From the IMG/VR virus record IMGVR_UViG_3300021959_000074, positions 1-48,386 of that record: a stretch of 48,386 nt of DNA. The stretch is one strand, 5' to 3'. The notes beneath the pieces were generated by a model that saw nothing but the letters and a program-made list of their open reading frames with translations, ran no database searches and was not told the DNA's origin. The translations under genes and the position numbers were made by a program. Source of the stretch: a virus. Shown piece after piece: positions 21,390-44,222 of this stretch (its first letter is position 1; each line of letters opens with the position of its first letter).

Positions 21390-21391
21390 AA

Positions 21392-24623: not shown

Positions 24624-24630
24624 AATTCTA

Positions 24631-24638
24631 ATTAAATA
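24631..24638 (+). promoter_or_regulatory. Possible late promoter for copy E
   Basis: ATTAAATA with predicted +1 at 24644, 16 nt before the ATG at 24660. It lies in the divergent gap with the minus-strand late promoter and is a weaker match than most here. Confidence 0.35.
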
Positions 24639-24644
24639 CTCAGT

Positions 24645-24652
24645 TATTTATA
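24645..24652 (-). promoter_or_regulatory. Late promoter TATAAATA, minus strand
   Basis: A perfect late octamer on the minus strand, predicted +1 at 24639, giving a 16-nt leader to the ATG at 24623. No clear Shine-Dalgarno is present in that leader. Confidence 0.55.
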
Positions 24653-24659
24653 GAAACCT

Positions 24660-25490: not shown

Positions 25491-25515
25491 CATAGCATTT
25501 TAAACTTGTTATAAT
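25487..25515 (+). promoter_or_regulatory. Consensus sigma-70 promoter, leaderless geometry
   Basis: TTGACA at 25487-25492, a 17-nt spacer, and TATAAT at 25510-25515, both perfect. With the -10 box ending at -7, +1 is 25522, the A of the next ATG. No Shine-Dalgarno sequence is present. Confidence 0.8.
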
Positions 25516-25521
25516 ATAAAA

Positions 25522-28788: not shown

Positions 28789-29291
28789 AAATATTAACGT
28801 TAGAAAATAGAGCATTTGATCTAAATGAATTGCCAGAGGAGGTAGATGAGGGTACGAGATTTAATGTTTTAGACAACAGCAATCCTCAAGAGCCGGATTT
28901 CTTTTTTATGCCTCTTATATTTTTAGAATCATTTAACAGTCCTGCAATACTGTTAAACATAGGAGGATACGAAGTACAGATGCCTTTGGATTGGTGTATG
29001 GTTGTAGCAGATAGCGAATCCGGATTAGATCCAGAAATACTTCCGCTGACATCAATCAATGAGCGTGGGTTTGACGCAATGGTTTTCAATCCAATTGCAG
29101 GATATCGAACAGAATATATGCCTATTGAAATACTTAACATCTATCAAGATGTTAAATGGTATTTTCCTAAAATGAAAAACGGACAATTATTAACTGTTCC
29201 GTTAAATGATGATTTAAATCCTCCGTGTGCATATTTTGTTAAAGAAGTTTCTAGACAGAGCGAAATTATACAACTGGACAAATTGCTCTAA
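28785..29291 (+). CDS. Conserved T4-like phage protein, unknown function
   Basis: A 168-aa protein of unknown function. It resembles a widespread protein of marine T4-like phages from the region near uvsW: DFFFMPLIFLESFNSPAILL, then GGYEVQMPLDWCMVVADSES, LPLTSINERGFDAMVFNP and VKWYFPKMKNGQLLTVPL. It has no membrane segment or recognisable enzymatic motif. Unlike its neighbours it is not obviously a glycan gene, so it may be the core phage gene into which the island has been inserted. Both ends overlap neighbouring genes. Confidence 0.7.
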   Translation: MKILTLENRAFDLNELPEEVDEGTRFNVLDNSNPQEPDFFFMPLIFLESFNSPAILLNIGGYEVQMPLDWCMVVADSESGLDPEILPLTSINERGFDAMVFNPIAGYRTEYMPIEILNIYQDVKWYFPKMKNGQLLTVPLNDDLNPPCAYFVKEVSRQSEIIQLDKLL

Positions 29292-29797
29292 TGGCGAATA
29301 GCAATGATAGATTAATTGTTCCACGAACTATAGAATGGAATAGAAAGAAAAGTAGTAGAAGACATGTTCTTCAGTGGTTAATAGAAACTTATAACTGTAA
29401 CACTATGATAGAAATTGGTGTGAGAAACGGAGGTACTTCGTTTTATCTTCTTGATCTGTTTCCTAATTTAACAGTATATGGCATAGATACTAATATTAGT
29501 CAATTTTATTCTTCTGAAATACAAGAAAAATATGGAGATAGATTAATAGTATTAAAAGGAATGAGTCATACATTGGCTGATTTTATTCCAGATAACTCCA
29601 TTGATATCATTTTTATAGATGGTAATCATAAGTATGAATTTGTAAGAAAAGATATACAATTATATACTCCTAAACTGAAAAAAGGAGGATTGATAACAGG
29701 ACATGATATTGACTACCCAGGTGTAAATCAAGCAGTAACCGAGTTAGTAAAGAAATATGATGTCGGTCCTAACAATGTGTGGTTCAAAAAACTCTAA
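29291..29797 (+). CDS. SAM-dependent methyltransferase (CmcI/Methyltransf_24-like)
   Basis: A 168-aa methyltransferase. NTMIEIGVRNGGTSFYLLDL near residue 36 is motif I, followed by VYGIDTNISQF (motif II) and IDIIFIDGNHKYEFVRKDIQ near residue 112, the metal-linked 'DG.H.Y..v..D' of the CmcI/cephalosporin-hydroxylase-like and Methyltransf_24 groups. GGLITGHDIDYPGVNQAV then completes the core. Such enzymes commonly methylate sugar hydroxyls in phage and capsule clusters. The gene overlaps the previous one by one base and is followed by a new late promoter. Confidence 0.8.
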   Translation: MANSNDRLIVPRTIEWNRKKSSRRHVLQWLIETYNCNTMIEIGVRNGGTSFYLLDLFPNLTVYGIDTNISQFYSSEIQEKYGDRLIVLKGMSHTLADFIPDNSIDIIFIDGNHKYEFVRKDIQLYTPKLKKGGLITGHDIDYPGVNQAVTELVKKYDVGPNNVWFKKL

Positions 29798-29805
29798 GGT
29801 AAATA
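29798..29805 (+). promoter_or_regulatory. Late promoter for the cupin gene
   Basis: GGTAAATA with predicted +1 at 29811, giving a 21-nt leader with AAGGG at 29822-29826 before the ATG at 29832. This late gene therefore has an ordinary Shine-Dalgarno leader. Confidence 0.5.
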
Positions 29806-29831
29806 AACAGAGCACTTAATTAAGGGTAGTT

Positions 29832-30182
29832 ATGATAGAAGGAAAAGTCTGGGGTCAAACTGAACTCATAGAAGCAAATTCTAGTTTAGAATTCCATCGT
29901 ATAGATATTAAAAAAGGTGGAACTTGTTCTAAACATAAACACAAATTTAAATTCAACGGATTTTATGTTGTATCTGGTAAACTATCTGTAAAAGTTTGGA
30001 AGAACGACTATGACTTAGTAGATGAAACAATAGTCACAGAAGGCCAATACACTGTCGTAAGACCGGGAGAATATCATCAGTTCGAAGCATTAGAAAATAC
30101 GTTAGCTTTTGAATTATATTGGGCACATTTCGATCACGACGACATTGAAAGAACAAGCGTAGGATATATTAGTAAAAAATGA
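29832..30182 (+). CDS. Single-domain cupin
   Basis: A 116-aa cupin barrel. Metal-binding positions are suggested by CSKHKHKFKFNGFYVVSGKL (motif 1, residues 37-56, HxH-type) and VVRPGEYHQFEAL (motif 2, 'PG..H.f.'). It is similar in style to the cupin domain of the fusion at 18396 and to phosphomannose isomerase-like cupins near sugar pathways, but it lacks a nucleotidyltransferase domain. A sugar-phosphate isomerase or epimerase role is a reasonable guess. It is translated from its own late promoter and overlaps the next gene by 4 nt (ATGA). Confidence 0.75.
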   Translation: MIEGKVWGQTELIEANSSLEFHRIDIKKGGTCSKHKHKFKFNGFYVVSGKLSVKVWKNDYDLVDETIVTEGQYTVVRPGEYHQFEALENTLAFELYWAHFDHDDIERTSVGYISKK

Positions 30183-30883
30183 AAATCGGACTAGTTTCAA
30201 CATTTAGTGATACCGGATATAACGAATATGCACACGTGTTTGTTGATGGTATAGAAAAGTATTTTGATTCAAGCATTGTTATAAATTTGTATACCGATAA
30301 TGTAAAAATTAATAGTCCAAAAATTAACACCATACCTTTAGAAAATTCAATTCCAGACTTAGTTAAATTTAAAAATAGAAACAAAAATAAATTACATAAA
30401 AACTTTTTGTTTGATGCTGTAAGATTTAGTCATAAAAGTTATGCTATTTGGCATGCTTCAGAAAACATTAATACAGACATTTTAATATGGTTAGATGCTG
30501 ATACGTTAATTAAAAAAGAAATCACTTCGGATTACTTAAAACAATTTCTTCCTAAAGGATACTTTACAAGCTATTTAGGCAGAGCAAGAAATTATACTGA
30601 AACTGGTTTTTTAGCATTTAATTTAGGACATCCTTATAGAAAAGAGTTTTTCGAAGAATATAAAGGGTATTATGATAGTGATAAAATTTATACACTAAAC
30701 GCATTTACAGATTGTCATGTTTACGATGCCACAAGGATTAACTTTGAAAATAATAAGAAAATTAAATCTTTTAATTTAACTCCTGCATTGAATAAAAATA
30801 ATTTTAATAAAACATTTGTCGGACATATGATTCATTTCAAGGGCGATAAAAAAACAAAAATGTCACAAGGAAGTTTAAAATGA
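30179..30883 (+). CDS. GT-A glycosyltransferase with DAD motif (paralog of the one at 23389)
   Basis: A 234-aa glycosyltransferase. The metal motif is D106-A-D108 (LIWLDADTLI); SYLGRARNYTETGFLAFNL and FTDCHVYDATR correspond to the same blocks in the 279-aa paralog on the minus strand, and a GHMIHFKGDKKTKM tail ends it. It lacks the longer C-terminal extension of that paralog. Divergence between the two copies is large, suggesting different donors or acceptors. ATGA overlaps join it to the cupin upstream and to the dehydratase gene downstream. Confidence 0.75.
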   Translation: MKIGLVSTFSDTGYNEYAHVFVDGIEKYFDSSIVINLYTDNVKINSPKINTIPLENSIPDLVKFKNRNKNKLHKNFLFDAVRFSHKSYAIWHASENINTDILIWLDADTLIKKEITSDYLKQFLPKGYFTSYLGRARNYTETGFLAFNLGHPYRKEFFEEYKGYYDSDKIYTLNAFTDCHVYDATRINFENNKKIKSFNLTPALNKNNFNKTFVGHMIHFKGDKKTKMSQGSLK

Positions 30884-31848
30884 AAAAAATAGCGTTTGTT
30901 ACCGGATTAACCGGTCAAGACGGTCCGTATCTATCAAAATTTTTGTTAGAGAAAGGATATGAAGTCTACGGTCTTATAAAAAGATATTCCAATCCAAATT
31001 TAGATAATATTAAATTTTTAGGAATTGAAAATGATATAGAATTAATTACTGGTGATATCACTGATGAAAATTCTATGAATCATATCATTAAAACTATTAA
31101 ACCAGAAGAATTTTATAATTTAGCGGCACAGAGTTTTGTTGGCGCTAGTTGGGAACTTAATAAATTAACAACAGAAACAAATTCTATGGGTCCGTTGAAC
31201 ATACTAAACTCTATTAGATTGAATAATCCTAGTACACGATATTATCAAGCAAGTACCAGTGAAATGTATGGAAACAGTGACGGTACTAAACAGCATGAAA
31301 ATACTCCGTTTAAGCCAAGAAGTCCGTATGGTGTATCAAAACTATATGCTTATTGGATCACTATTAATTTTCGTGAAAGCTACAGTCTTCATGCTTCAAA
31401 TGGTATTTTGTTTAATCATGAATCTCCATTAAGAGGAATAGATTTTGTTACAAGAAAAATAACCGACGCTGTTGCTAGAATTAAATTAGGGCTTTCAGAT
31501 ACGATAACTTTAGGTAACTTAGATTCTAAAAGAGATTGGGGATTTGCTGGCGATTACGTTGAAGCGATGTGGATGATGGTACAACAAAAAGAACCAGGCG
31601 ATTATGTTATATCAACTGGCGAACAACATAGTATAGGAGAATTATTAGACGTAGCATTTAATCATGTCGGTATTACTGATTATCAAAAATACGTAAAATC
31701 AGATCCAAGATTCAAACGCCCTGCAGAATTACATAGTCTCTGCGGAGACAGCTCAAAAGCAACAGCGTTGTTAGGATGGACTCCTAAAGTAACATTTGAA
31801 GAATTAATAAAAATGATGGTCGATGCAGATATTAAAAGATTATCTTAA
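30880..31848 (+). CDS. gmd: GDP-mannose 4,6-dehydratase
   Basis: A 322-aa short-chain dehydrogenase/epimerase-type enzyme that converts GDP-D-mannose to GDP-4-keto-6-deoxy-D-mannose, the branch point to GDP-fucose, rhamnose and perosamine. TGLTGQDGPYLSKFLLEKGY at residues 8-27 is the NAD(P)-binding glycine motif. FYNLAAQSFVGASW, STSEMYGNS and the catalytic SPYGVSKLYAYW (Y-x3-K) follow, as do GILFNHESPLRG and RDWGFAGDYVEAMW, all diagnostic of Gmd. The length is a little below the usual 345-370 aa. No fucose synthase or perosamine synthase is in the window, so the product's fate is unknown. Confidence 0.93.
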   Translation: MKKIAFVTGLTGQDGPYLSKFLLEKGYEVYGLIKRYSNPNLDNIKFLGIENDIELITGDITDENSMNHIIKTIKPEEFYNLAAQSFVGASWELNKLTTETNSMGPLNILNSIRLNNPSTRYYQASTSEMYGNSDGTKQHENTPFKPRSPYGVSKLYAYWITINFRESYSLHASNGILFNHESPLRGIDFVTRKITDAVARIKLGLSDTITLGNLDSKRDWGFAGDYVEAMWMMVQQKEPGDYVISTGEQHSIGELLDVAFNHVGITDYQKYVKSDPRFKRPAELHSLCGDSSKATALLGWTPKVTFEELIKMMVDADIKRLS

Positions 31849-31881
31849 TAAACAATATTACAATATAGTAAGAAGAAAATA

Positions 31882-32454
31882 ATGGCATTAGAAAAACACT
31901 TAGGCGGGCATGCTGATAAAACACATTTAGATCATGGTGCTTTAACATTTTTAAAAAATACCTTTAACGCAAAAAGCTATTTAGATATAGGCTGTGGTCC
32001 CGGAGGAATGGTACAATTAGCAGAAGAAATGGGTCTGGATTCAAAAGGCATAGATGGAGATTATACTGTTAATCGATACAACGAAGATAGATTTCTAATA
32101 CACGATTTTACTAAAGGACCAGCACCTTTGTCAGGAACATACGACATAGGATGGAGTGTTGAATTTGTTGAACATGTCTATGAACAGTATATTCCTAATT
32201 TCATAAAAGCCTTCCAATCTTGCAAAACTATATTAATGACGTATGCTCCTCCTGGTTGGGAAGGCCATCATCATGTCAATCTACAAGAAGAAAAATATTG
32301 GATCGATACTTTTAAAAATTATGGGCTGATCTATAATGAGGACTATACTAAACAAGTTCGAGTAGCATCAACATTAAACCTTAAGGTTAAAAAAGGAAAA
32401 AAAGCGTTTGTGAGAAACCGAGGGTTATTATTTATGAATTCAAATGTAAATTAA
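31882..32454 (+). CDS. SAM-dependent methyltransferase
   Basis: A 190-aa class I methyltransferase. YLDIGCGPGGMVQLAEEMG at about residues 34-52 is motif I, GIDGDYTVN is motif II, and the SGTYDIGWSVEFVEHVYEQY segment is the conserved post-IV region ('D..w..e..EHv'). MTYAPPGWEGHHHVN then suggests a substrate loop. The C-terminal tail is basic. It is separated from gmd by 33 nt containing an AAGAAG ribosome binding site, so it is transcribed in the same unit. Acceptor unknown; sugar or lipid-linked intermediates fit the context. Confidence 0.78.
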   Translation: MALEKHLGGHADKTHLDHGALTFLKNTFNAKSYLDIGCGPGGMVQLAEEMGLDSKGIDGDYTVNRYNEDRFLIHDFTKGPAPLSGTYDIGWSVEFVEHVYEQYIPNFIKAFQSCKTILMTYAPPGWEGHHHVNLQEEKYWIDTFKNYGLIYNEDYTKQVRVASTLNLKVKKGKKAFVRNRGLLFMNSNVN

Positions 32455-32464
32455 TGTTACTGTT

Positions 32465-33127
32465 ATGATTATTAATAAATCTAATTATAATATAGCTCAT
32501 TTTATAGATAGTCAATTAGTTACTCCCTCTGCTGTTAAAAATGGAACTCACAGATACAATCATTTAAAATTTGCGATGGAACAGGTATCTATTACTGGAG
32601 AAGTATTAGAATTCGGAGTGTATAGTGGTGCTTCAATTAATATGATAGCTGAGAAATTTTTAGAAGACATAGTTCATGGTTTTGATAGCTTTGAAGGATT
32701 ACCAGAAGCGTGGGCAATGACTAAAAAAGATATTACTAGAGGAAATCCTAGAGTAGCCAAAGGACATTTTTCAGTAGGCCAATTACCTAGTGTACATTCT
32801 AATGTTCGGTTATGGAAAGGATGGTTTAATTCTACACTTCCACTACATATTAAAGAAATTGCTCCGGCACAGATTAAATTTTTACATGTAGATTGTGATT
32901 TATATTCTAGCACAAAAACTATTTTCGATTTGTTAAACAATCACATTGTTAAAGAAACAGTTATTGTATTCGATGAATTTTATCCATTCAGAGACAAAAC
33001 AGAATATGAACTCTGGGAACGTCACGAATACAAGGCCTTGAAAGAATGGGTTGAACGGTATGATCGAGAATTTACAATATTAGGACGTAGTAATTATCAA
33101 CAATGTTCGATAAAAATATTAAAATAG
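32465..33127 (+). CDS. TylF/MycF-type sugar O-methyltransferase
   Basis: A 220-aa protein that matches the macrocin O-methyltransferase (TylF/MycF) type, which is metal-dependent and methylates deoxysugar hydroxyls. EFGVYSGASINMIAEKF near residue 49 is the SAM-binding motif, HGFDSFEGLPEAW the following strand-loop, and IKFLHVDCDLYSSTKTIFDL near residue 140 the metal-binding 'H.D.DlY.ST'. IVFDEFYPF holds the catalytic-site Asp/Glu pair. The family link to deoxysugars fits the nearby gmd, which makes a deoxysugar precursor. It overlaps copy F by 25 nt. Confidence 0.85.
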   Translation: MIINKSNYNIAHFIDSQLVTPSAVKNGTHRYNHLKFAMEQVSITGEVLEFGVYSGASINMIAEKFLEDIVHGFDSFEGLPEAWAMTKKDITRGNPRVAKGHFSVGQLPSVHSNVRLWKGWFNSTLPLHIKEIAPAQIKFLHVDCDLYSSTKTIFDLLNNHIVKETVIVFDEFYPFRDKTEYELWERHEYKALKEWVERYDREFTILGRSNYQQCSIKILK

Positions 33128-34023
33128 TTGCCATTAAAGAATTGTTATGGGCTTATCATCCGTTACCTAATGATGTAATTATAGTACCATTTGACAATAA
33201 ATCTGTTATAGATTCTGCAGACATATTATTACAAACAAATATTAAAGGCGGAAAACGAGAGAAAAAACTGGGTAAAATATATCAATATGTTATAGATAGC
33301 GGTAAGCCTTTTATCTGTGTAGAGTCAGCGGTGTTTAGAAGAAATATGCCAACTCCTCCAAACCCAATGGCATATCATCGATGGAGCTGGACTAGTTACT
33401 TTCGAGACGAGGGAGACTATTGTAATGAAAATAGCCCGCCTGATAGATGGAATCAAATTAAAACAGATCAAAATATTGAAATAAAATCTTGGAGGACAGA
33501 AGGAGAATATATCCTTCTTCTTTTACAGAGACCCGGAGATACCAGTTTAACTAAATTAATAGACAAACACGGTTCTTATGAAAACTTTGTATCATATACA
33601 ATTAAAGAAATTAAAAAAAATACAGATAGAGATATATTAATTAGACCTCATCCAAGCAGAAAACAAGCACAAATAAAAATTATAGAATCACTGAATCTAA
33701 CAGGAATAACAATAAGTAACACCCCTTCTAAAGAAGGTTCATTATCAGGAGGTGATGGACTTTATACTGATTTTAGTAATGCATGGGCAGTTGTTGGATT
33801 TAACTCCAACGCATTAACAGAAAGCGTGTGTGAAGGAATTCCAACGTTCAGTATGTGTCCAAGCTCAATGGCATGGGATGTATCAAACAAAAGTTTAGAA
33901 GACTTAGAAAGTCCAATGTTATTTGAAAGACAGCAATGGTTAAATAATCTTGGATATTGCCAGTGGCGAGAAGACGAATGTTTAAATGGAGATCCTATTA
34001 AACATCTTTTAAAACGGAGATAA
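33103..34023 (+). CDS. Putative GT-B-like glycosyltransferase, island family copy F
   Basis: A 306-aa copy with an intact RPHP: DILIRPHPSRKQAQ, preceded by YILLLLQRPGDTSL and NFVSYTIKEIKKNTDRD, and followed by VVGFNSNALTESVCEGIPTF and NLGYCQWREDECLNGDPI. The N-terminal half has FICVESAVFRRNMPTPPNP and YHRWSWTSYF, like the 'E.g.lrr' region of capsule transferases. It is some 8 kb from copy E and flanked by methyltransferases, so the family was spread through both halves of the island. The 25-nt overlap with the TylF-type gene indicates coupled translation. Confidence 0.65.
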   Translation: MFDKNIKIVAIKELLWAYHPLPNDVIIVPFDNKSVIDSADILLQTNIKGGKREKKLGKIYQYVIDSGKPFICVESAVFRRNMPTPPNPMAYHRWSWTSYFRDEGDYCNENSPPDRWNQIKTDQNIEIKSWRTEGEYILLLLQRPGDTSLTKLIDKHGSYENFVSYTIKEIKKNTDRDILIRPHPSRKQAQIKIIESLNLTGITISNTPSKEGSLSGGDGLYTDFSNAWAVVGFNSNALTESVCEGIPTFSMCPSSMAWDVSNKSLEDLESPMLFERQQWLNNLGYCQWREDECLNGDPIKHLLKRR

Positions 34024-34024
34024 A

Positions 34025-34624
34025 ATGAAAGAACAAGAATACAAAGATAAAATGTGGGAAATAGCAAAGAGATACGATAAAAAAGCCCGCGGATCAAAAT
34101 ATGTACGTAGGTGGGACCACTTCTGGGACGAAAAACAATTAATAGCAGACTTATCTTTGTTAGAAGGAAATAACATTAAAAGTGTTCTAGATATCGGAAC
34201 AGGTGTAGGAATGTTACCTTTTATCTATGAACAAAGAGGGCTTGAAGTTGAGGGCACTGATATTACCGAGGATATTACAGGAAAAATGTTTATAGAATGT
34301 TGTCAGCTTATTAATTTAAAAAGATTTGAACTCTGGGTAAAACCAAATCAGCCTATGAATTTACCAAGAAAATATGACATGATTGTAGCAACTAGAACAG
34401 AGTTTGATAGACAGGAAAACTGGGATTGGAAATACTTCTTAGATGACTGTTTCAATTATTGCAATAGAGTGTTTTTTAAATTAAACGAAGGCGGCAGTCT
34501 AAAGAAATACAATCCAGGATTTGCCAAAATATTGTTTAACAAAAAACCCGACGACACGTCTATCGGACACTGGTGTTTGAAAATAGATGAGGCTGAATGG
34601 AAGGAAATTAGGAAAACCTTTTGA
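34025..34624 (+). CDS. SAM-dependent methyltransferase
   Basis: A 199-aa class I methyltransferase. SVLDIGTGVGMLPFIYEQRG near residue 55 is motif I, EVEGTDITE motif II, and KYDMIVATRTEFDRQENW the motif IV region. The N-terminus is basic (KRYDKKARGSKYVRRW), as in some sugar and lipopolysaccharide methyltransferases. It lies one base after the copy F stop and overlaps the next gene by 4 nt. It is a separate type from the FkbM and TylF enzymes nearby, with no close paralog in the window. Confidence 0.75.
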   Translation: MKEQEYKDKMWEIAKRYDKKARGSKYVRRWDHFWDEKQLIADLSLLEGNNIKSVLDIGTGVGMLPFIYEQRGLEVEGTDITEDITGKMFIECCQLINLKRFELWVKPNQPMNLPRKYDMIVATRTEFDRQENWDWKYFLDDCFNYCNRVFFKLNEGGSLKKYNPGFAKILFNKKPDDTSIGHWCLKIDEAEWKEIRKTF

Positions 34625-35262
34625 TTAATCTTCTTATATCTTGTGATCAATCTTATTACGAACTATGGGGAGAAACTTGTTTAAAAAGTATACAAAAATT
34701 TTCGCCAGCAGTTAAATTACACGCCAACATAGTTAATGCAACAAAAATAGAAGAACTTCCTGGGGTTAAGTATCATTATGATTCTCAAGAATTTTCATCA
34801 GAAGATCATAGAATTGGATATTTACAATGCTCTAGATTTATCAAATCTGCGGAGTTATTTCAAAATAAAGAACCGGTGGTAACTATTGATTGTGACACAA
34901 TTTGTTGGAGAGAAATTACGGTTGAGCAATGGAATCGACTTTCATCTAACATTTATGTTCTTAGGCATCATAAAAAACCTAGATGGTTAGCAGGTCTAGT
35001 TAGTTTTGGTAGAGATAATAGTTTTCGAGAAGATCTAAAAAAACGATTATTAGAGTTTCCGTTTGACAGACTAAGATCAGGTATTGACCAAAAAGTTTTA
35101 AGAAATCTTTCCGAAACGTATGAATTTCATGAAACAATAGTCGGAGACATAATGAGCTTCTATAGAGGGCATGCTCCTTTAGTAACATTTAAAGGAGAAC
35201 AAAAAGATCACAAAGAAAGTATGTTACACTATCATACCGTAAAGAGAAGTTTAGGATTATGA
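34621..35262 (+). CDS. GT-A glycosyltransferase with DCD motif
   Basis: A 213-aa glycosyltransferase-like protein. NLLISCDQSYYELWGETCLK is the first strand-helix, and VVTIDCDTICW carries the DxD motif at D90-C-D92. The C-terminal GIDQKVLRNLSETYEF helix and SMLHYHTVKRS (a terminal His like the metal ligand of GT8-type enzymes) match the fold. The start is a TTG at 34621 whose T and G belong to the upstream TGA; no upstream ATG is possible without long overlap. The last codons overlap the next methyltransferase gene by 4 nt. Confidence 0.7.
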   Translation: MINLLISCDQSYYELWGETCLKSIQKFSPAVKLHANIVNATKIEELPGVKYHYDSQEFSSEDHRIGYLQCSRFIKSAELFQNKEPVVTIDCDTICWREITVEQWNRLSSNIYVLRHHKKPRWLAGLVSFGRDNSFREDLKKRLLEFPFDRLRSGIDQKVLRNLSETYEFHETIVGDIMSFYRGHAPLVTFKGEQKDHKESMLHYHTVKRSLGL

Positions 35263-35810
35263 TTTCAGATAGTTATAAAAAAATCTATACAGAGATACAC
35301 GCTAAAACTAAATTTGGAAAAAGATCAAAAATTCCGGATTTTCTGCCTGTCTTTATAGAAAAAATATCTCCAACAAGCATTTTAGACTTTGGGTGTGGCA
35401 AAGGAAATCTAGTAGAAAAATTAAAAGAAGTTTATCCCAAAACAAATATCTTAGGATTTGATCCTGCCAACCCTAAGTTTGATAATTTACTATCTCAAGT
35501 AGACCTAATCATATCAACAGATGTTTTAGAACATATTGAACCCAATCTAATCGATCAAACATTAGAAGAAATAGCAGATAATTGCAATCATACCTATCAT
35601 TTAATAAGTTGCGCACCTGCTAAACTTATTTTACCAGACGGTCGTAATGCTCACCTTATACAAGAAACTCCAGAGTGGTGGCGCAAGAAGTTTTTAGATT
35701 TAGGATTTAATATATACAAAGAACACTATGTAGAATTTGAAAAATTTTCAAAACAGCTTAACAAAAAACTTCCTGTAAAAAATTACTTCATTATGGGATC
35801 AAAACTATGA
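35259..35810 (+). CDS. SAM-dependent methyltransferase
   Basis: A 183-aa class I methyltransferase. SILDFGCGKGNLVEKLKEVY near residue 40 is motif I, NILGFDPANP motif II, and DLIISTDVLEHIEPNLIDQT near residue 85 the catalytic-region 'D...S.dVLEHi'. Its centre has the pattern of small Methyltransf_11/23-type proteins. It is coupled at both ends by ATGA overlaps to the GT-A gene and to the FkbM gene, so it belongs to the same translation-coupled glycan string. Acceptor unknown. Confidence 0.78.
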   Translation: MISDSYKKIYTEIHAKTKFGKRSKIPDFLPVFIEKISPTSILDFGCGKGNLVEKLKEVYPKTNILGFDPANPKFDNLLSQVDLIISTDVLEHIEPNLIDQTLEEIADNCNHTYHLISCAPAKLILPDGRNAHLIQETPEWWRKKFLDLGFNIYKEHYVEFEKFSKQLNKKLPVKNYFIMGSKL

Positions 35811-36451
35811 AATTTGTTAACGGGTGGGCTTTTCCGTTATTTGATTCTCATTTTAAAAAATACGTTAGTAACTACCCAGAAACTTTTTATCAACAAGAAG
35901 TATTCGAAGAATCATTAAAGTATGTAAAAGATTTCAAAGTAGCTATTGATGCTGGAGCTAATGTAGGGCTACATTCTGTAAGATTTGCAAAAAAATTTAA
36001 TAAGGTATATTCGTTTGAACCCTCTGCTGAAAACTTTATATGTTTAGAAAAAAATTGTGGAAACGATAAAAACATAAAATTGTATAATCTAGGGTTAGGC
36101 AAAATCCAAGAAGATAAAAAATTAAAACTTCCAAAACTTTCTAATAATTGTGGATTGTTTTCTACATCTGAATATAATCTATTAGATGAAAGTAGTTTAA
36201 AAGAAGAACAAATAAAAATTATTACAATAGATAGCTTAGGGTTAGAAACAAATTTAATAAAAATTGATACACAGGGTTCGGAATTAGAAATTTTACAAGG
36301 AGCCGAAAATACTATTAATAGTTATAAACCTGTGATAACAGTAGAACTTGAAAGAAAAAAAATAAGAGAAGATGTTTCTATTTTTTTAAAAAAATTAAAA
36401 TATAAATTAGTTAAAAAAATTGGAAAAGATAATATTTGGATATCATTATGA
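35807..36451 (+). CDS. FkbM-family methyltransferase
   Basis: A 214-aa FkbM methyltransferase with the typical order: AIDAGANVGLHSVRFAKKFN near residue 47 (motif I), KVYSFEPSAENFICLEKN (motif II), the ITIDSLGLETNLIKIDTQGS segment near residues 140-159, and SELEILQGAENTI. The aspartate and QG-S-E residues are the signature of the family. It is the last glycan-island gene and is A+T-rich and Lys/Asn-rich. The next gene's ATG overlaps its stop (ATGA). Third FkbM-type protein in the window and the most canonical one. Confidence 0.88.
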   Translation: MKFVNGWAFPLFDSHFKKYVSNYPETFYQQEVFEESLKYVKDFKVAIDAGANVGLHSVRFAKKFNKVYSFEPSAENFICLEKNCGNDKNIKLYNLGLGKIQEDKKLKLPKLSNNCGLFSTSEYNLLDESSLKEEQIKIITIDSLGLETNLIKIDTQGSELEILQGAENTINSYKPVITVELERKKIREDVSIFLKKLKYKLVKKIGKDNIWISL

Positions 36452-36681
36452 CAGACTCATACATTTATGAATCTCCCGACGGGGGTGAAACAATATATCG
36501 TAGGAAATTTTATTCTGATAAAAAAGAAAAAGTCGGAGTATCGAAAAATGCCCGCATTAAAGAAGAAGAAGCACATTGGAAAGAAATATTGGAGGCCGCA
36601 GAAGACAATCCGGTCTTGCAAAATGCTATAGAACGTGTTAAAATGTTATATCATTTAACTAAAAAAGACACAAATGCCTAA
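36448..36681 (+). CDS. Small conserved T4-like phage protein, unknown function
   Basis: A 77-aa protein. TDSYIYESPDGGETIYRRKF at the N-terminus and an acidic helix EAAEDNPVLQNAIERVKML resemble a short protein found near replication genes in marine T4-like phages; no function is known to me. The ATG at 36448 overlaps the upstream stop (ATGA); a TTG at 36436 in the same frame is less likely. It marks the return from the glycan island to core phage genes. The stop overlaps the next start by 8 nt. Confidence 0.75.
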   Translation: MTDSYIYESPDGGETIYRRKFYSDKKEKVGVSKNARIKEEEAHWKEILEAAEDNPVLQNAIERVKMLYHLTKKDTNA

Positions 36682-37150
36682 CAAATATGTAGATTTATTC
36701 AAAGATATGATACCCGCAGTCGATATGGGTATCAAAGAACTGTGGGATGCCGCCACAGACGAAGGCAAGAAAGAAATCAAATTAGATTTTTGGAATCTTA
36801 ATCGGTATATCAGTAACGTCAAAACAAACAACAGAGAGCTTCAAGAACATTATGTTCTAACAGTTAATGAGTTCTATAATAAAAATTGGAATGAGATACA
36901 AAAGCATCCTAAGTTAGTTTGGATGACTCTAGCGATGTGCGGACATGAAAGCAAAAAAACACACTTCCATGAATGGATTCCTTTAAAAAGACAAAAAAAC
37001 AAAAAAGAAGAATTCTTAGCTAACTTGTTTCCGGATATGAAATATGCAGATATCGAAACTATGGCTAAGATAACTTCGGACAAAGAAATCAAAAACTATT
37101 GCGAAAGTTTAGGTTGGGATAAGAAACAGATCAATGCTATCAAGTTTTAA
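36674..37150 (+). CDS. 62: Clamp-loader small subunit gp62-like
   Basis: A 158-aa helical protein that I assign, with reservations, to the gp62 family, the small clamp-loader subunit that works with gp44 to place sliding clamp gp45 on DNA. The stretch KLDFWNLNRYISNVKTNNRE fits the conserved 'F.vNR.lS' region of gp62, and KYADIETMAKITSDKEIKNY fits the C-terminal 'YyGyS..ka...l' helices. T4 gp62 is 187 aa. In T4 the order is 45-44-62; here the genes upstream are the glycan island, so gp44 and gp45 must lie elsewhere. It overlaps the next gene by 17 nt. Confidence 0.5.
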   Translation: MPNKYVDLFKDMIPAVDMGIKELWDAATDEGKKEIKLDFWNLNRYISNVKTNNRELQEHYVLTVNEFYNKNWNEIQKHPKLVWMTLAMCGHESKKTHFHEWIPLKRQKNKKEEFLANLFPDMKYADIETMAKITSDKEIKNYCESLGWDKKQINAIKF

Positions 37151-37817
37151 ATGTGAATATTGCGAAAAAGAGTTCGTCAAAGAAAAAACTTTGGCTGTGC
37201 ATGTCTGCGAACAAAAACGTAGGTATCTCGCTAAGAACGAAAAACACACACAGATGGGATTAATGACCTATCAAAAGTTTTATGAATTCACACAAAAAGG
37301 TAAAACAACAAAAACGTTTGATGATTTTGTAAAGAGTCCTTATTACACAGCATTTGTGAAGTTTGGTAGCTTCATGGTTAATACAGCGCCAATATATCCT
37401 GAGCTGTTTGTAGAATATGTTGTTAAAAGCGGAGTGAAGCTAGACCACTGGTGTCGTGATGAATTGTATGAAAAATATATCGCTGACTTGATTAAGAAAG
37501 AACCAGCAGATGGTGCTATACAGAGAACACTTAAAACTATGATGGATTGGGCGGACGATCAGGAAGCACCATGGGAACATTATTTTAAATATGTAAATCT
37601 TAATCGAGCTACACACGATATTAAAGAAGGGTTAATAAGTCCTTGGGTGTTATTAAATACTAAGTCAGGCAAAGAAATGTTAAGGCAAATGAATGACGAA
37701 CAATTAGAAATAGTAGGACCTATGATAGATCCTAAATTTTGGATGAGCAGATTCAAAGCAGTTCCTGCTGATACGGAATTAGTCAAAGACGTAATACACG
37801 AAGCGAGGATACTGTAA
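37134..37817 (+). CDS. Zinc-finger-containing conserved phage protein
   Basis: A 227-aa protein. FKCEYCEKEFVKEKTLAVHV with the following CEQKRR gives C7-x2-C10...H23-x-C25, which fits a C2H2/C2HC zinc knuckle. The rest is helical (YTAFVKFGSFMVNTAPIYPE, then KTMMDWADDQEAPWEHYF). Similar proteins with an N-terminal CxxC finger lie near replication genes in marine T4-like phages, without known function. A DNA-binding role is suggested by the finger. The gene overlaps the gp62-like gene and abuts a small acidic gene. Confidence 0.7.
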   Translation: MLSSFKCEYCEKEFVKEKTLAVHVCEQKRRYLAKNEKHTQMGLMTYQKFYEFTQKGKTTKTFDDFVKSPYYTAFVKFGSFMVNTAPIYPELFVEYVVKSGVKLDHWCRDELYEKYIADLIKKEPADGAIQRTLKTMMDWADDQEAPWEHYFKYVNLNRATHDIKEGLISPWVLLNTKSGKEMLRQMNDEQLEIVGPMIDPKFWMSRFKAVPADTELVKDVIHEARIL

Positions 37818-38056
37818 TGAAAGACAAAAAGAAACCGCCATTGATTATAGAAGATTTAGAAGAACTAGAAGAAAATGAAGAGTATCTTAGTCCTGCAGAT
37901 TTAGAGTTAGTAATTTTTGCAGTAGAAGAAGACGAAGCACCTGCAGTCTATGTTAAGATAATGAATTTTGATGATATAGAAGATGCAGAAGATTATGCAG
38001 AAACACTTAAGAAAAACCTTCCTTTATTATTATTAGAAACTACGATAAAACACTAA
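37817..38056 (+). CDS. Small acidic protein, unknown function
   Basis: A 79-aa protein with many Glu and Asp residues (LEELEENEEYLSPADLELVI, then VEEDEAPAVYVKIMNFDDIE). It is predicted to form a small alpha/beta fold with no recognisable motif. It overlaps the zinc-finger gene and the DnaE-palm gene by one base each, so all three are translationally coupled. A regulatory or partner role for the DnaE-like protein is possible; nothing in the sequence proves it. Confidence 0.6.
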   Translation: MKDKKKPPLIIEDLEELEENEEYLSPADLELVIFAVEEDEAPAVYVKIMNFDDIEDAEDYAETLKKNLPLLLLETTIKH

Positions 38057-38637
38057 TGCCTGATATAGATATAGATTTTTTAGATAGAGAAAAAGCACTC
38101 GAACTGTTTGATCATGTAGTTGCTAGTCGTATTGAAGATGGCAAGATGGTTAAACACAACACAGGTGTGTATCTGCATGATGTACCAGTTAATGCAGTAG
38201 AAGGACTATGTAGTGTTCCATATGATCAAGCGGACGAAGAGGGTTTCTTTAAATTGGATTTTCTAAATGTAGGCCTGTACAAAGGCATACGTGACGAACA
38301 ACATCTTGTAGAACTAATGAATCAAGAACCTATGTGGGGACTGTTAGAAGAAGATGATTTTACAGATATGTTGTTCCACGTTAATGGACACGGTGAAATA
38401 CTAAGGAAGATGAAACCCACTTCTATTCCACAACTAGCGGCAGTGTTAGCAGTAATACGTCCTGCTAAAAGATATCTCGTAGGTAAAGATTGGAACACAG
38501 TAATGCAGGAAGTATGGCAGAAACCAGAAGGTGATGAATACTTCTTTAAGAAGTCACATGCTACTGCTTATGCTGTTGCGATCGTTGTACAGATGAATCT
38601 AATCTGTGATTTTACAGTCCAATCAGGTGAGGAATAA
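38056..38637 (+). CDS. Miniature DnaE-like (DNA polymerase III alpha palm) protein
   Basis: A 193-aa protein resembling the palm of bacterial DNA polymerase III alpha. PDIDIDF at residues 2-8 matches the DnaE 'PDxDxDF' catalytic strand (D401/D403 in E. coli). NTGVYLHDVPVN matches 'kTGiHagGvvi', and GFFKLDFLNVGLY near residue 70 matches the 'lvKfDfLGLr' strand with the third catalytic Asp (D555). AVLAVIRPA and FFKKSHATAYAVAIVV then match the 'alfRPG' and 'NKSHaaaYalvsy' fingers motifs. PHP, most of the fingers and the clamp-binding regions are missing. Similar short proteins are known to me in marine T4-like phages without a demonstrated activity. Its 3' end overlaps a convergent SGNH gene by 26 nt. 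Confidence 0.75.
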   Translation: MPDIDIDFLDREKALELFDHVVASRIEDGKMVKHNTGVYLHDVPVNAVEGLCSVPYDQADEEGFFKLDFLNVGLYKGIRDEQHLVELMNQEPMWGLLEEDDFTDMLFHVNGHGEILRKMKPTSIPQLAAVLAVIRPAKRYLVGKDWNTVMQEVWQKPEGDEYFFKKSHATAYAVAIVVQMNLICDFTVQSGEE

Positions 38638-39424
38638 ACTGTTCAGCTATTTCTTTGTGGAATGAATAATCATAATGTTCTTGATCATCACCTACATGAT
38701 GTTTTAAATGATCAATACCTTTTTCCTTTAAAAACTCAATACATGGTGTTCTTTCTAAAACAATATCTAGATCCCCGTAAACATCTAACTCGGTAGGTAT
38801 GAACACATCTTTATTGAGTCTCCACATATAAACTTTAACATTTTTTTCTTTACACATTCTATCTATTAGACATAAATTTCTTGTATAATTTTGTTTAGAT
38901 ATGAACGTTTCCAATTCATTAAAAACTTTCATCTGTAGATAGTTTGCTGTTTCGAATGGCTCTGGTTTTTCTACATCAGGTAATATCAAATGATCCATGT
39001 GCCCTGGATATGTTTTAGCATGAAATAAGTAATGACCATTACAATCTTGTTGTATGTTGTCCATAAATCTATCAATATTGTCGTATTGGTCTTGATGAAC
39101 CGTAAAGTTATCTAATGGAATCTCTTCTTCAAAGGTGCTATATAGATTGCTAGACAGCATCCAGCGATTCCAATATGTTGTTTGTAATATCAGTTTATCT
39201 ATGTCAGGATACATATCAAGACAAAATCTAATCCAGTCGGGATACCTATCGTTTCCAACTCCTGGAGTCGCATATATTACACCATCTATATTATGTTTTT
39301 TACAGTATATTTCTGCGTAGTTATTAGGATGCCAAACTTTTGGAATGAAGATATCGGGCATAGGACCTTGGTCAATACTATATCCCGAAGTGTGACTGTC
39401 ACCAATAAAAAGTATTTTACTCAT
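38612..39424 (-). CDS. SGNH-hydrolase-like protein
   Basis: A 270-aa protein. IGDSHTSGYSIDQGPM at residues 7-22 has the GDSH block I of SGNH/GDSL hydrolases; TPGVGNDRYPDWIR provides the GN of block III, and HYDYSFHKEIAEQFIPHL at the C-terminus has a D-x-x-H-like element for the catalytic Asp/His. Such enzymes remove acyl or acetyl groups from sugars and lipids, and phage members act on capsule or lipopolysaccharide O-acetyl groups. It is minus-strand, 14 nt downstream of another minus gene, and convergent with the DnaE-like gene. A link to the glycan theme of the window is plausible. Confidence 0.75.
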   Translation of the reverse strand: MSKILFIGDSHTSGYSIDQGPMPDIFIPKVWHPNNYAEIYCKKHNIDGVIYATPGVGNDRYPDWIRFCLDMYPDIDKLILQTTYWNRWMLSSNLYSTFEEEIPLDNFTVHQDQYDNIDRFMDNIQQDCNGHYLFHAKTYPGHMDHLILPDVEKPEPFETANYLQMKVFNELETFISKQNYTRNLCLIDRMCKEKNVKVYMWRLNKDVFIPTELDVYGDLDIVLERTPCIEFLKEKGIDHLKHHVGDDQEHYDYSFHKEIAEQFIPHLIGL

Positions 39425-39438
39425 ATAGAGTAATTATC

Positions 39439-39810
39439 TTATTTGGTTTTTCTAACGAGTGTAATTGATTTACGTTTGATTCTTTTTGTGATTATATCGT
39501 TTAAACTTACTACAGGACCAAACAATACTTTAATATCCTTGGTATTAAAATTACGAATAGCGTATCGATAAGACATAATCTCCCTAGAAAGAAATATATT
39601 AATAGGAATTTGCCTATTGGATTCCCACCACCAAGCTTCTCCTAGTTCTAAGAATCTCTTTTTTTCTTCCTCTGAACGGATTGAAGTATAGTCGTACATA
39701 CTAGTTATTTGAGCATCTTGATTAATAATTATACCAACGTACTCTTTATCTACGTGATTGACACACGCAATAAATGGGAAGTTTTCTTTTAGATTATCTG
39801 TAATTTTCAT
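39439..39810 (-). CDS. Hypothetical protein, possible glycan-related
   Basis: A 123-aa protein of unknown function. It begins MKITDNLKENFPFIACVNHV and contains YVGIIINQDAQITSMYDYTS, a Trp-rich acidic region with AWWWESNRQIPINIFL, and a basic C-terminus RIKRKSITLVRKTK. Predicted mostly beta. It lies 14 nt upstream of the SGNH gene on the same strand, so the two are probably one unit. No clear late or sigma-70 promoter is seen before its ATG, whose upstream region overlaps the divergent late promoter at 39812. Confidence 0.6.
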   Translation of the reverse strand: MKITDNLKENFPFIACVNHVDKEYVGIIINQDAQITSMYDYTSIRSEEEKKRFLELGEAWWWESNRQIPINIFLSREIMSYRYAIRNFNTKDIKVLFGPVVSLNDIITKRIKRKSITLVRKTK

Positions 39811-40710: not shown

Positions 40711-41736
40711 ATGACTCTGGTAATCGATTCTTTTAGAAAACTACTCCCTGCGAGAGCAAAATCCAATCCTAGCGGTTGGACATCATTTAACGCCCCTTGT
40801 TGTCAGCATCGAGGACATAGTCCAGATTCTCGCAAACGAGGTGGTATTAGATTTGCTGACGGTATTGTCTTTAACTGTTTTAACTGTAAATTCACTGCTA
40901 GTTGGCAACCAGGACGTGGGTTGTCTGAGAAATTTAAATCGTTGTGCCGATGGCTAGGTGCAAATGAAGATATGATCAAGGATCTTGTGTTCGAGGCACT
41001 CAAGACTGAATCCCCCGAATACAAACCAGAGTCTTTCAAGCCAAAAGTAGAATTCACCAAAAAGGATCTTCCCGAAGGCAGTCTTAGATTGCTAGATTGG
41101 ATTGATACTGATCTGCCTAGTGATATCGAAGAAAAGATTGCAGAAGTCATAATGTATCTAGAAAGCCGAGGGCAAGATCCTTTGAGTGGTGATTTTTATT
41201 GGTCACCGTTAGGAGGATTTGATAAACGTGTAACTATTCCATTTACATATAAAAACGAGATAGTTGGTTATACATCAAGACGTGTTGATAAAGGAAAACC
41301 AAAATATCTCAGCGATCATCATAACGGATTTGTTTTTAATGTAGATAATCAAAAAGAAGAACAAAAATATATTTTTGTTGTAGAAGGTCCGTTTGATGCA
41401 TTAAACATTGGAGGAGTAGCATTACTCACTAACGATGTTAATGACACACAGGCTAGGATAATTAATAGTTTAGGGCACGAAGTTATCGTTATTCCAGATC
41501 AAGATAGTGCTGGATTAAACTTAGTATCTAAAGCCGCAGAGTTAGGTTGGAGTGTAGCATTTCCAAACTGGGATGATCATATCAAAGATGTCAGTGACGC
41601 TGTACAACAATACGGTAAACTTTTTGTAATTGTTGATGCCATTAAAACTGCACAACAAGGACAAATTAAAATTAATGTTGCAAAACATAAAATGGAACAA
41701 AAAATAGAAAGGTTAGAATATGAAGAAAATAATTGA
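40711..41736 (+). CDS. 61: DNA primase gp61
   Basis: A 341-aa primase that makes RNA primers with helicase gp41 (T4 gp61 is 342 aa). The N-terminal zinc domain has C30-C31-x-H33 and C56-x2-C59 (NCFNC), followed by a basic loop. The TOPRIM domain is marked by VVEGPFDAL near residue 225 (catalytic Glu) and IPDQDSAG near residue 261 (metal-binding DxD). The C-terminal helix KMEQKIERLEYEENN may contact the helicase. A small gene and a carbamoyltransferase lie between it and gp41. The start codon coincides with the predicted transcript start. Confidence 0.93.
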   Translation: MTLVIDSFRKLLPARAKSNPSGWTSFNAPCCQHRGHSPDSRKRGGIRFADGIVFNCFNCKFTASWQPGRGLSEKFKSLCRWLGANEDMIKDLVFEALKTESPEYKPESFKPKVEFTKKDLPEGSLRLLDWIDTDLPSDIEEKIAEVIMYLESRGQDPLSGDFYWSPLGGFDKRVTIPFTYKNEIVGYTSRRVDKGKPKYLSDHHNGFVFNVDNQKEEQKYIFVVEGPFDALNIGGVALLTNDVNDTQARIINSLGHEVIVIPDQDSAGLNLVSKAAELGWSVAFPNWDDHIKDVSDAVQQYGKLFVIVDAIKTAQQGQIKINVAKHKMEQKIERLEYEENN

Positions 41737-41833
41737 ATGGCTTCTTAAACCCTATCGCAAATTCCAACAGCATAGACAATTTAAGAAAAGAATTAAACAA
41801 CTTAAAAAACAGGATCCTTTTATATACAAATGA
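41720..41833 (+). CDS. 37-aa conserved small basic protein
   Basis: A short reading frame starting with an ATG inside the primase 3' end. It encodes MKKIIEWLLKPYRKF, then an RQFKKRIKQLKKQ helix and DPFIYK at the end. The '(K)KRi..LkkqDPFIYk' C-terminus is one I recall as a conserved short phage protein in marine T4-like genomes. The gene overlaps primase (17 nt) and carbamoyltransferase (ATGA, 4 nt), so it fits into a coupled primase unit. Function unknown; the amphipathic basic helix could bind membrane or nucleic acid. Confidence 0.65.
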   Translation: MKKIIEWLLKPYRKFQQHRQFKKRIKQLKKQDPFIYK

Positions 41834-42795
41834 TTACTTGGGGAATAAACGCACTCAATCACGATGCTAGTATCGCTGTTGTTAAAGATGGCGAACTGAT
41901 TTTTTGGAAACGTTCTTCAGAATATACCAATGTAGTTGGCGATCAGTTCTTATGTCGTCAGCTCATACAGGATGCTACAAAAGCAGGTGGTTGTCATCCT
42001 AACGAAGTCGTCTGGTATGAGAATGCTTGGTTAAAGAAAACCAGACAATTATATGCAGGACAATATCGTTGGGCTTTTAGTTACAGCGAACTTCCTAAAG
42101 TATATTTGAAAAAATTAAAAATTAAATATCGTAAATTTAAATATGTTCCGCATCACTTATCGCACGCGGCCGCTGGTTACTTAACTTCTCCATTTAAGAA
42201 TGCTGTTATCGTAGTGTTAGATGCACTAGGAGAATGGGAATCAAGCACTATATGGTATGCACGTGGTAGGACTTTTGAGAAAGTGTGGAGCCGTAAATAT
42301 CCAACTAGTCTTGGATTATTTTATTCAGCATTTACAGATCTAATAGGACTAAAACCTATCAGTGAAGAACACGAACTACAAAAATTAAGTGATCAAGGAA
42401 ATCCTACTAGATACAAATTATTAGTTAAAGATTTTTGGACTAGCGATTGGCAATTAAGACAGAATTTACACAAAGGTGTTAGAGACTGGAAAGGTTATTT
42501 CCAATATTCTGATCGTGCAGATGTTGCCGCGGCAGTACAGGAAGTATTCGAAAAACAGGCACAGAAAGTTTTTGATATCGCTAAAGAATACAGTGATAAT
42601 TTAGTATATATGGGCGGATGTGCTATGAACAGCAAGTTTAATAAAAAATTAGAGAATCAGTTCAAAGGCATATGGAGTTTACCAGTACCTGGAGATAGCG
42701 CCAGCGCTATAGGATGCGCTTTATATAGCCAAAACACTAGAATAGAGTGGAAAGGTTCACTTGCAAAACACATTAAAATCAAGTATAATAATTAG
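41830..42795 (+). CDS. Carbamoyltransferase (NodU/CmcH-type), short form
   Basis: A 321-aa protein of the NodU/CmcH/HypF-like family, which transfers carbamoyl groups to sugars or other hydroxyls. The N-terminus GINALNHDASIAVVKDGEL is the family's 'G...g.HDaS.a...dG.l' opening. HHLSHAAAGYLTSPFKNAVI near residue 112 holds the catalytic 'HH..HA..a' metal and acceptor site, followed by LDALGEWES and, near the C-terminus, VYMGGCAMNSKFNKKL. Full-length members are about 550-600 aa with a C-terminal YrdC-like part; this is a short version, as in other T4-like marine phages. Its position between primase and helicase is unrelated to replication and suggests a glycan role. Confidence 0.85.
   Translation: MITWGINALNHDASIAVVKDGELIFWKRSSEYTNVVGDQFLCRQLIQDATKAGGCHPNEVVWYENAWLKKTRQLYAGQYRWAFSYSELPKVYLKKLKIKYRKFKYVPHHLSHAAAGYLTSPFKNAVIVVLDALGEWESSTIWYARGRTFEKVWSRKYPTSLGLFYSAFTDLIGLKPISEEHELQKLSDQGNPTRYKLLVKDFWTSDWQLRQNLHKGVRDWKGYFQYSDRADVAAAVQEVFEKQAQKVFDIAKEYSDNLVYMGGCAMNSKFNKKLENQFKGIWSLPVPGDSASAIGCALYSQNTRIEWKGSLAKHIKIKYNN
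42761..42789 (+). promoter_or_regulatory. Sigma-70 promoter for gp41, near-leaderless
   Basis: TTGCAA at 42761-42766, a 17-nt spacer, and TATAAT at 42784-42789. The predicted +1 is 42796, 2 nt before the ATG at 42798. It lies within the end of the carbamoyltransferase gene. Confidence 0.6.
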
Positions 42796-42797
42796 AT

Positions 42798-44222
42798 ATG
42801 CAAAACAACGATTACGGACCAGAAGTACAAAAACTATATCTTGAACTGATGCTTTCAAATGCTGAAACATTTGTTAGATGCCAAGGTATCTTTGATCACA
42901 CATTGTTTGATCGCAAACTACAAGATGCGGCGGAGTTTATCAACGAATATACCAAACAATACAGCGTGATGCCTGACTTTGATATGGTTAATACACATTG
43001 CCGTACAGATCTAAAGAAGCCAGAAGAGATCAAAGAAGGACACTTAGATTGGTTGATGGATGAATTTGAACAGTTTACTAGACACAAAGCATTAGAACGT
43101 GCGATCATCAATTCAGCAGATCTATTAGAAAAGAATGATTATGGACAGGTAGAATCCATGATCAAAGAAGCAGTACAGATAGGATTAGCCAAAGACTTAG
43201 GTACAGATTACTTTAGTGATCCTAGAGCTAGGCTACAGGGATTGCGTGACAAGAACGGACAGATTTCGACGGGATGGCCAGCGCTTGACAATCGTTTGTT
43301 CGGTGGCATGAATCGAGGCGAGTTGAATATTTTTGCGGGAGGATCAGGTGCTGGCAAATCCTTGTTCTTGGCAAATCTAGGTGTTAACTGGGCGTTACAG
43401 GGACTCAATGTTGTTTATCTAACATTAGAACTTTCAGAAGCGTTAGTTAGTATGCGTATCGATAGTATGATCACAGGCATTCCAACACGTGAAGTGTTTA
43501 AGAGCTTAGATGATGTCGAGATGAAAGTTAAGATGATAGGCAAGAAATCAGGTAGCCTACAGGTAAAATATATGCCAAGTGGTAAGACATCTAATGATGT
43601 TAGAGCATATCTAAAAGAGTATGAGATTAAAGTAGGCAAGCGTGTAGATGTGTTGTTGGTAGATTACTTAGATTTATTAATGCCTAACAGCCGTAAGATA
43701 TCTCCAGCGGATCTATTCATCAAAGACAAGTATGTAAGTGAAGAATTGCGTAACCTAGCGATGGAATTAGATTGTGTGTTCGTGACAGCGGCACAGTTAA
43801 ACAGGGGTGCTGTAGAAGAAGTAGAATTTGATCACAGCCATATCTCAGGTGGTTTGAGCAAGATACAGACAGCAGATAACGTATTTGGTATCTTTACATC
43901 AAGAGCTATGCGTGAGCGTGGTAGATATCAGATACAGTTAATGAAGACCAGATCAAGCAGTGGTGTTGGTATGAAGGTTGATCTAGAATACAACATGGAA
44001 ACACTACGCATTTCAGATCTACCAGAAGACGAGCAGGAACACTCAGGATCAGCACCAAGAGGCACATCTAGTATCATAAACGACATCAAACGAAAATCTA
44101 ACGTAAATCAAGAAAACAGAGAAGAACCTACACAAGGCGTACCAGTAGGACGAGTCAAGGCACATGTTGAAAGCACCAAGTTAAGAGAAATATTAAACAA
44201 CATGGGCGGAGATGAAGACTAG
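42798..44222 (+). CDS. 41: Replicative DNA helicase gp41
   Basis: A 474-aa DnaB-type hexameric helicase that unwinds the fork ahead of the leading strand and works with primase gp61. The N-terminal helical domain occupies residues 1-150, and the RecA-like domain begins with ISTGWPALDNRLFGGMNRGE. Walker A GGSGAGKS is at about residues 180-187 and Walker B VDVLLVDYLDLLM near residue 283. FVTAAQLNRGAVEEVEFDHS carries the H3-like sensor, and the C-terminal 60 residues are charged and possibly disordered. T4 gp41 is 475 aa. The stop overlaps the next gene by 11 nt. Confidence 0.94.
   Translation: MQNNDYGPEVQKLYLELMLSNAETFVRCQGIFDHTLFDRKLQDAAEFINEYTKQYSVMPDFDMVNTHCRTDLKKPEEIKEGHLDWLMDEFEQFTRHKALERAIINSADLLEKNDYGQVESMIKEAVQIGLAKDLGTDYFSDPRARLQGLRDKNGQISTGWPALDNRLFGGMNRGELNIFAGGSGAGKSLFLANLGVNWALQGLNVVYLTLELSEALVSMRIDSMITGIPTREVFKSLDDVEMKVKMIGKKSGSLQVKYMPSGKTSNDVRAYLKEYEIKVGKRVDVLLVDYLDLLMPNSRKISPADLFIKDKYVSEELRNLAMELDCVFVTAAQLNRGAVEEVEFDHSHISGGLSKIQTADNVFGIFTSRAMRERGRYQIQLMKTRSSSGVGMKVDLEYNMETLRISDLPEDEQEHSGSAPRGTSSIINDIKRKSNVNQENREEPTQGVPVGRVKAHVESTKLREILNNMGGDED

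Follow-up and report, generated by a model that had tools for sequence, protein, structure and literature searches.

A putative metal-binding half of a split, minimal DNA polymerase III alpha core in a T4-type environmental phage

The window studied here, i.e., the whole stretch of DNA that was analysed, is a virus record of 48,386 bases from a T4-type phage in which terminase, gp32, UvsX, UvsY, UvsW, primase and a gp41-like helicase are recognisable. Our analysis is centred on a gene, referred to here as B, that begins with an ATG codon at position 38056, extends to position 38637 of the plus strand and encodes a protein of 193 amino acids. This protein belongs to phrog_11778, a family annotated as "DNA polymerase", and its match to this family covers residues 3-187 (E = 6e-66). 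On the minus strand of 38056-38637, we found no competing long open reading frame except one of 58 amino acids, and in the frame of B that strand is interrupted by stops. When the B protein was compared with the sequences in the PDB by phmmer, only Pol III alpha chains (5lew and 7pu7) were retrieved; these matches are weak (E = 1.3 and 2.7), and they align MPDIDIDF, LFHVNGHGEILRKMKPTS..RP and FFKKSHATAYA in the correct order.

B is embedded in a conserved block with the gene order UvsW-P-Z-S-B-M (minus strand)-V-primase-gp41. In the window, the upstream landmark of this block is a gene for a UvsW-like helicase (26699-28153, plus strand), and on the same strand lie P (36674-37150; 158 amino acids, phrog_11758), Z (37134-37817; 227 amino acids, phrog_11058, with an N-terminal C2H2-like zinc finger that scores below the Pfam cut-off) and S (37817-38056), which encodes a small acidic protein of 79 amino acids. 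Downstream of B follow the convergent gene M (39439-39810, minus strand; 123 amino acids, phrog_11637), a gp61-like DNA primase (40711-41736, plus strand) and a DnaB-like replicative helicase resembling T4 gp41 (42798-44222, plus strand). Z and M each occur in 85 of 86 B loci, P in 82, the primase in 78 and a blastp homologue of S in 55. The coupling of B to an acidic and a zinc-finger gene, as put forward in the initial annotation, is borne out at the nucleotide level: the TAA stop codon of S overlaps the start codon of B (TAATG), and Z overlaps S in the same way (TAATG). Z may represent a further subunit. In Salicola phage SCTP-2, the gene that overlaps the start of B (L085, 6485-7960) encodes a protein of 492 amino acids with a weak match, below the cut-off, to the primase subunit PriX (E = 0.0014).

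Several other features of the window deserve a brief description. A gene for a protein of 270 amino acids (38612-39424, minus strand) shares 26 bases with the 3' end of B; by eye, its N-terminus (FIGDSHTSG) resembles that of an SGNH hydrolase, Pfam and PHROG gave no match, and none of the 86 related loci contains a homologue. The gap between B and M is variable among the relatives and consequently looks like an insertion hot spot. The window virus differs from its relatives by a variable gene inserted after B and by the last approximately eight residues of the B protein, which are unlike those of the related proteins. Between the primase and the gp41-like helicase, a carbamoyltransferase (Carbam_trans_N, E = 2.8e-33) is encoded at 41830-42795, with a homologue in 60 of the 86 related loci. 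Between UvsY and the replication genes lies an extended block (18396-36451), interrupted by UvsW, of glycan and small-molecule genes; it includes a confirmed GDP-mannose 4,6-dehydratase as well as proteins that by eye resemble glycosyltransferases, FkbM methyltransferases and capsule proteins.

The B protein can be placed on the DnaE protein of Escherichia coli through a series of landmarks that comprise MPDFDVDF (399-406), HAGGVV (511), KFDFLGL (553), the segment from VFQLES to FRPGP (608-642) and FNKSHSAAYA (756). A local hhalign alignment of B with the single DnaE sequence spans only residues 55-138, and the other motifs were assigned by motif identity. The start codon of B corresponds to Met399 of DnaE, so that the palm is cut at this position, and the N-terminal MPDIDIDF motif (38056-38079) contributes D3 (38062-38064) and D5 (38068-38070), the counterparts of D401 and D403; D7 is likewise invariant. 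The sequence HNTGVYLHDVP (H34-P44; 38155-38187) corresponds to the palm strand that begins with HAGGVVIAP at residue 511 of DnaE, and KLDFLNV (38251-38271) provides K66, the equivalent of K553, and the third aspartate D68 (38257-38259), the equivalent of D555. D401, D403 and D555 are the established catalytic residues of DnaE. The segment LFHVNGHGEILRKMKPTS...IRPAK (38371-38469) aligns to the first part of the fingers (DnaE 608-642), and FKKSHATAYA (38545-38574) to the helix FNKSHSAAYA (756-765). All of these motifs are on the plus strand. In a set of 50 diverse homologues with identities down to 36%, the residues D3, D5, D7, H34, G37, K66, D68, R135, P136, K138, F164, H168 and N181 are invariant, which upholds the original proposal of a DnaE palm with three metal-ligand aspartates. 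D10 and R11 are about 90% conserved. In the mycobacterial DnaE1 protein, D424 and D426 are equivalent catalytic aspartates, and D10/R11 of B correspond to its template-groove residues D431/R432 (PMC12641269).

B thus holds the Mg2+ ligands, palm strands and a trimmed fingers region. As judged from its length and the alignment, DnaE residues 1-398, approximately 410-508 and 643-755, together with everything that follows the KSHA helix, are absent, in agreement with the earlier view that the protein lacks the PHP domain, most of the fingers and the clamp-binding part. About 113 fingers residues (DnaE 643-755, including RR709-710) have shrunk to a short link in front of FKKSHATAYA. According to published domain limits, the thumb comprises residues 433-509 of DnaE and the contact to tau residues 657-667 (PMC4703070); the latter lie within the missing 643-755 region. 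Accordingly, the PHP domain, the thumb, the RR709-710 pair, the tau contacts and the clamp motif of DnaE have no counterpart in B. The GRGS (GS nucleotide-binding) motif is also located outside the B chain.

Structure prediction, proposed at the outset as a check of these assignments, yielded a confident AlphaFold2 model of B (mean pLDDT 91.9, pTM 0.78). In a Foldseek search of the PDB, the 14 best matches of this model were all Pol III alpha (E from 6e-3), and among viral predicted structures, phage DnaE proteins were found as well. On the basis of this model, B is predicted to possess a DnaE palm fold.

Relatives of B are present in 90 phage records of jumbo phages, including those of 121Q, GAP32, CBB, PA5oct, Atu_ph07, SCTP-2 and Vibrio phage 2.275; each of them covers at least 80% of B, and all are less than 60% identical to it. 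Phages of both alpha- and gammaproteobacteria are represented in the family, and at least 549 IMG/VR stretches encode it. A scan of genome contigs for cellular homologues gave four weak matches among the matches listed, with 26-33% identity over part of the query. For both B and its partner A (see below), dN/dS values of about 0.03-0.27 were obtained from pairs with unsaturated dS, and these sequence comparisons indicate that the B family is under purifying selection. The notion of a degenerate remnant or pseudogene has consequently to be abandoned, since the B family is maintained at full length in the 90 jumbo-phage records with invariant residues, dN/dS is well below 1, and at least 549 relatives exist in IMG/VR.

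Nor does B appear to stand alone; it is probably the conserved, C-terminal half of a minimal Pol III alpha that is split into two genes. In the genomes of the relatives, a second small gene, A (phrog_11127, about 170 amino acids), is found far from B and carries the DnaE segment that precedes B, including GRGS, which is invariant in 48 A sequences. When 12 genomes with B were searched with PF07733, nine contained a separate, distant small open reading frame that matches profile positions 11-98, i.e., the region just before MPDID. The A proteins end with ...GVGRGSSVASYVLYLIGVHKIDSLKYNLDWREFLR, and the A profile can be aligned to the DnaE of E. coli as far as residue 393. With MPDFDVDF beginning at residue 399, the split point of the palm falls between 393 and 399, so that A stops five residues before B starts, and the native Met399 has become the start codon of the second gene. 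The AlphaFold2 model of A is confident as well (pLDDT 90.3), and its 16 best hits in the PDB are chains of Pol III alpha and PolC (E from 2e-3). For A and B alike, the fold matches are specific, with modest scores (E about 2e-3 to 6e-3, and TM about 0.45-0.55 when normalised by query length), as expected when partial domains are matched to chains of 900-1200 residues; nothing else competes with them.

Both genes are present in 20 of 20 records longer than 285 kb, with one clear copy each; one further, weak A match (E = 0.0075) occurs in record W05. That one half is sometimes missing from shorter records is expected, since these are fragments. In the phage collection, B and A matches number 34 and 34 for Escherichia, 8 and 8 for Erwinia, 8 and 8 for Salmonella, and 11 and 10 for Klebsiella; the A search also picks up phages with a full-length DnaE. 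The distance between the two genes varies, being about 31 kb in the E. coli phage 121Q, where the two halves are encoded by genes 16 and 56, and more than 100 kb in Phosso, Atu_ph07 and SCTP-2. In 121Q and Paride, A lies close to the gene for the gp44 clamp loader, and in other relatives it lies near genes that by annotation or appearance are GroES- and MazG-like. In the 48-kb window, A is absent (the best tblastn match has E = 0.013, and no frame contains a GRGS-like motif); it would lie outside of this fragment, and its existence in the window virus is therefore deduced from the relatives.

Other arrangements of the two halves were considered. No fused A-B gene was seen, the B reading frames being 188-246 and those of A 155-181 amino acids long. 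An intein-split DnaE does not fit either, because the A and B proteins that were read carry no intein-like extension; A ends after EFL(R/K) and B starts at the native Met. A third gene supplying the missing fingers or the PHP domain was not found in the genomes searched: PHP was not detected in 10 related genomes, and matches to PF17657 were sub-threshold throughout, all but one of them at the B gene itself.

The initial annotation had also argued that B is not the main replicase, and this view holds. A family B DNA polymerase is absent from the 48-kb window; of 12 related genomes, 10 contain one, and the remaining two are contigs of less than 200 kb. Most of the family B sequences that were read contain the SLYPS and YxDTDS motifs, some stretches being too short for every motif; where they could be examined, the motifs are intact. 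Between UvsY and UvsW, 121Q and Vibrio phage 2.275 encode an exonuclease of the DnaQ type (RNase_T, E about 1e-15; L084, 2802-3617; L086, 2923-3726) that may serve the split Pol III for proofreading. In Vibrio phage 2.275, this exonuclease occurs even though a family B polymerase with a DIET exonuclease motif is present.

Collectively, these data lend themselves to a model in which B would form the metal-binding half, and A, the product of a distant gene of the same phage, the other half of a minimal catalytic core of the C-family (Pol III alpha) type. As A ends at the equivalent of DnaE residue 393 and B starts at Met399, the two chains together should restore the palm site, to which A would contribute GRGS, and B D3, D5, D68 and K66. 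Since all catalytic elements are conserved in two genes that are not linked, and most other parts of DnaE have been lost, we infer a heterodimer that rebuilds a Pol-beta-type active site and that would be active as a nucleotidyltransferase in concert with the T4-type replisome. This model is supported by the fact that the A and B structure models each independently find Pol III alpha as their best PDB matches; it is further supported by the position of B between UvsW and the primase/helicase genes, and by that of A close to the clamp-loader gene (gp44) of 121Q and Paride. With the thumb, the fingers arginines and the clamp and tau sites gone, the enzyme would be slow and distributive, and an accessory function (primer extension, gap filling, repair or damage bypass) appears likelier than that of a replicase, a task that the family B polymerase should fulfil. 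We consider it probable that A and B form a catalytically active heterodimer, which most likely acts as an accessory DNA polymerase; complex, catalysis and role are deduced from the findings described above.

As to whether such an enzyme would copy a template, the features of B point both ways. The first fingers segment, the position of D10/R11 near the template groove and the KSHA helix speak for an engagement of DNA. Efficient polymerisation is made doubtful by the lack of the thumb and of the fingers arginines; in the absence of the thumb (DnaE 433-509) and of fingers residues 643-755 from B, templated synthesis may be poor or impossible. The chief rival to our model is a template-independent nucleotidyltransferase formed by A and B that retains the Pol-beta-type catalytic site and, after loss of the thumb and of the part of the fingers that grips the dNTP, adds nucleotides to the ends of DNA or RNA, or to another acceptor. 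In its favour, the catalytic and GRGS residues are invariant, the counterparts of approximately DnaE 410-508 and 643-755 have shrunk to short links, and no other thumb, fingers or PHP fragment was found in the genomes searched. We nevertheless regard it as unlikely, given the conservation of the first fingers segment, the RP motif, the FKKxHA helix and, at about 90%, D10/R11 (corresponding to D431/R432 of mycobacterial DnaE1; PMC12641269), and given a neighbourhood made up of replisome genes.

Less probable still is a polymerase-derived protein without catalytic function that serves the phage replisome as a scaffold or regulator; the loss of the thumb and of the fingers arginines and the tight linkage to Z, primase and helicase would suit such a function, but the three metal-ligand aspartates, K66 and GRGS are absolutely conserved across the aligned A and B sequences. 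The suggestion that B inhibits the host Pol III, or acts as its decoy, through host DnaN or DnaX/tau draws on its homology to host DnaE, but we consider it very improbable because the host-contacting surfaces are precisely the deleted parts (the tau-contacting residues 657-667 of DnaE and its C-terminal tail, as well as the clamp motif; PMC4703070), and because a decoy would need neither the partner A nor an intact active site, whereas the family occurs in phages of alpha- and gammaproteobacteria with invariant residues of its own, the catalytic ones included.

Returning to the A-B heterodimer, a bolder version of our model, which we consider slightly less likely than not, envisions a working two-subunit C-family enzyme that is thumbless and almost fingerless, represents the smallest Pol III-type catalytic core and operates beside a family B replicase within the same replisome, perhaps as a template-independent nucleotidyltransferase or as an enzyme dedicated to primer extension or gap filling. 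Provided that it is active, the A-B pair would reveal the capabilities of a Pol III core without a thumb, full fingers and a clamp site, and it would put to the test the proposal that minimal split forms model the ancestral Pol III (PMC7824862). It also raises the question why a large group of phages, some of which infect E. coli, Klebsiella, Pseudomonas and Erwinia, retain a split family C core in addition to their family B replicase, a question that can be addressed in a laboratory host, since the E. coli phage 121Q carries both halves.

The split Pol III as such was predicted in 2021, and the gene in the window is a new environmental example of it. In an independent computational study, a phage-specific minimal Pol III catalytic subunit was described for the jumbo phages of group 2.2; it is split into separate proteins that are encoded by distant genes alongside a family B polymerase, and cooperation in the synthesis of one strand or in repair was suggested as its role (Iyer et al., 2021; Viruses 13:63; PMC7824862). 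This is the only report on the split that we found in the open-access literature, in which we found no experimental study. The A-B pair belongs to the same family, with the same division into NTP-binding and Mg2+/template-binding halves from distant genes (for the window, A by way of the relatives), and it keeps the same company of a family B polymerase, seen in the relatives, and a T4-type replisome. To this description, our analysis adds the exact cut relative to E. coli DnaE, the invariance of residues, the co-occurrence of both halves in 20 of 20 records, structure models and the selection data. With the bacterial DnaE proteins (C-family, with a Pol-beta-like palm), the pair shares the palm strands, D401/D403/D555, K553, part of the fingers, the FNKSHxxAY helix and, in A, GRGS; unlike DnaE, it consists of two polypeptides and lacks the PHP domain, the thumb, the RR709-710 fingers segment, the OB domain, the tau-binding tail and the clamp motif. 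A DnaE that is divided into two adjacent genes occurs in Microbacterium phage Krampus (L244, 2974-6325), with the A-like segment mostly in the second gene; this is a tandem split of Pol III alpha, unlike the distant split into A and B. Finally, PolX of ASFV, a minimal family X polymerase described as consisting of a nucleotidyltransferase fold and fingers only (PMC11646218), resembles the A-B pair, as far as this description goes, in being a viral minimal polymerase with a Pol-beta-type fold, and differs from it in being a single chain of family X.
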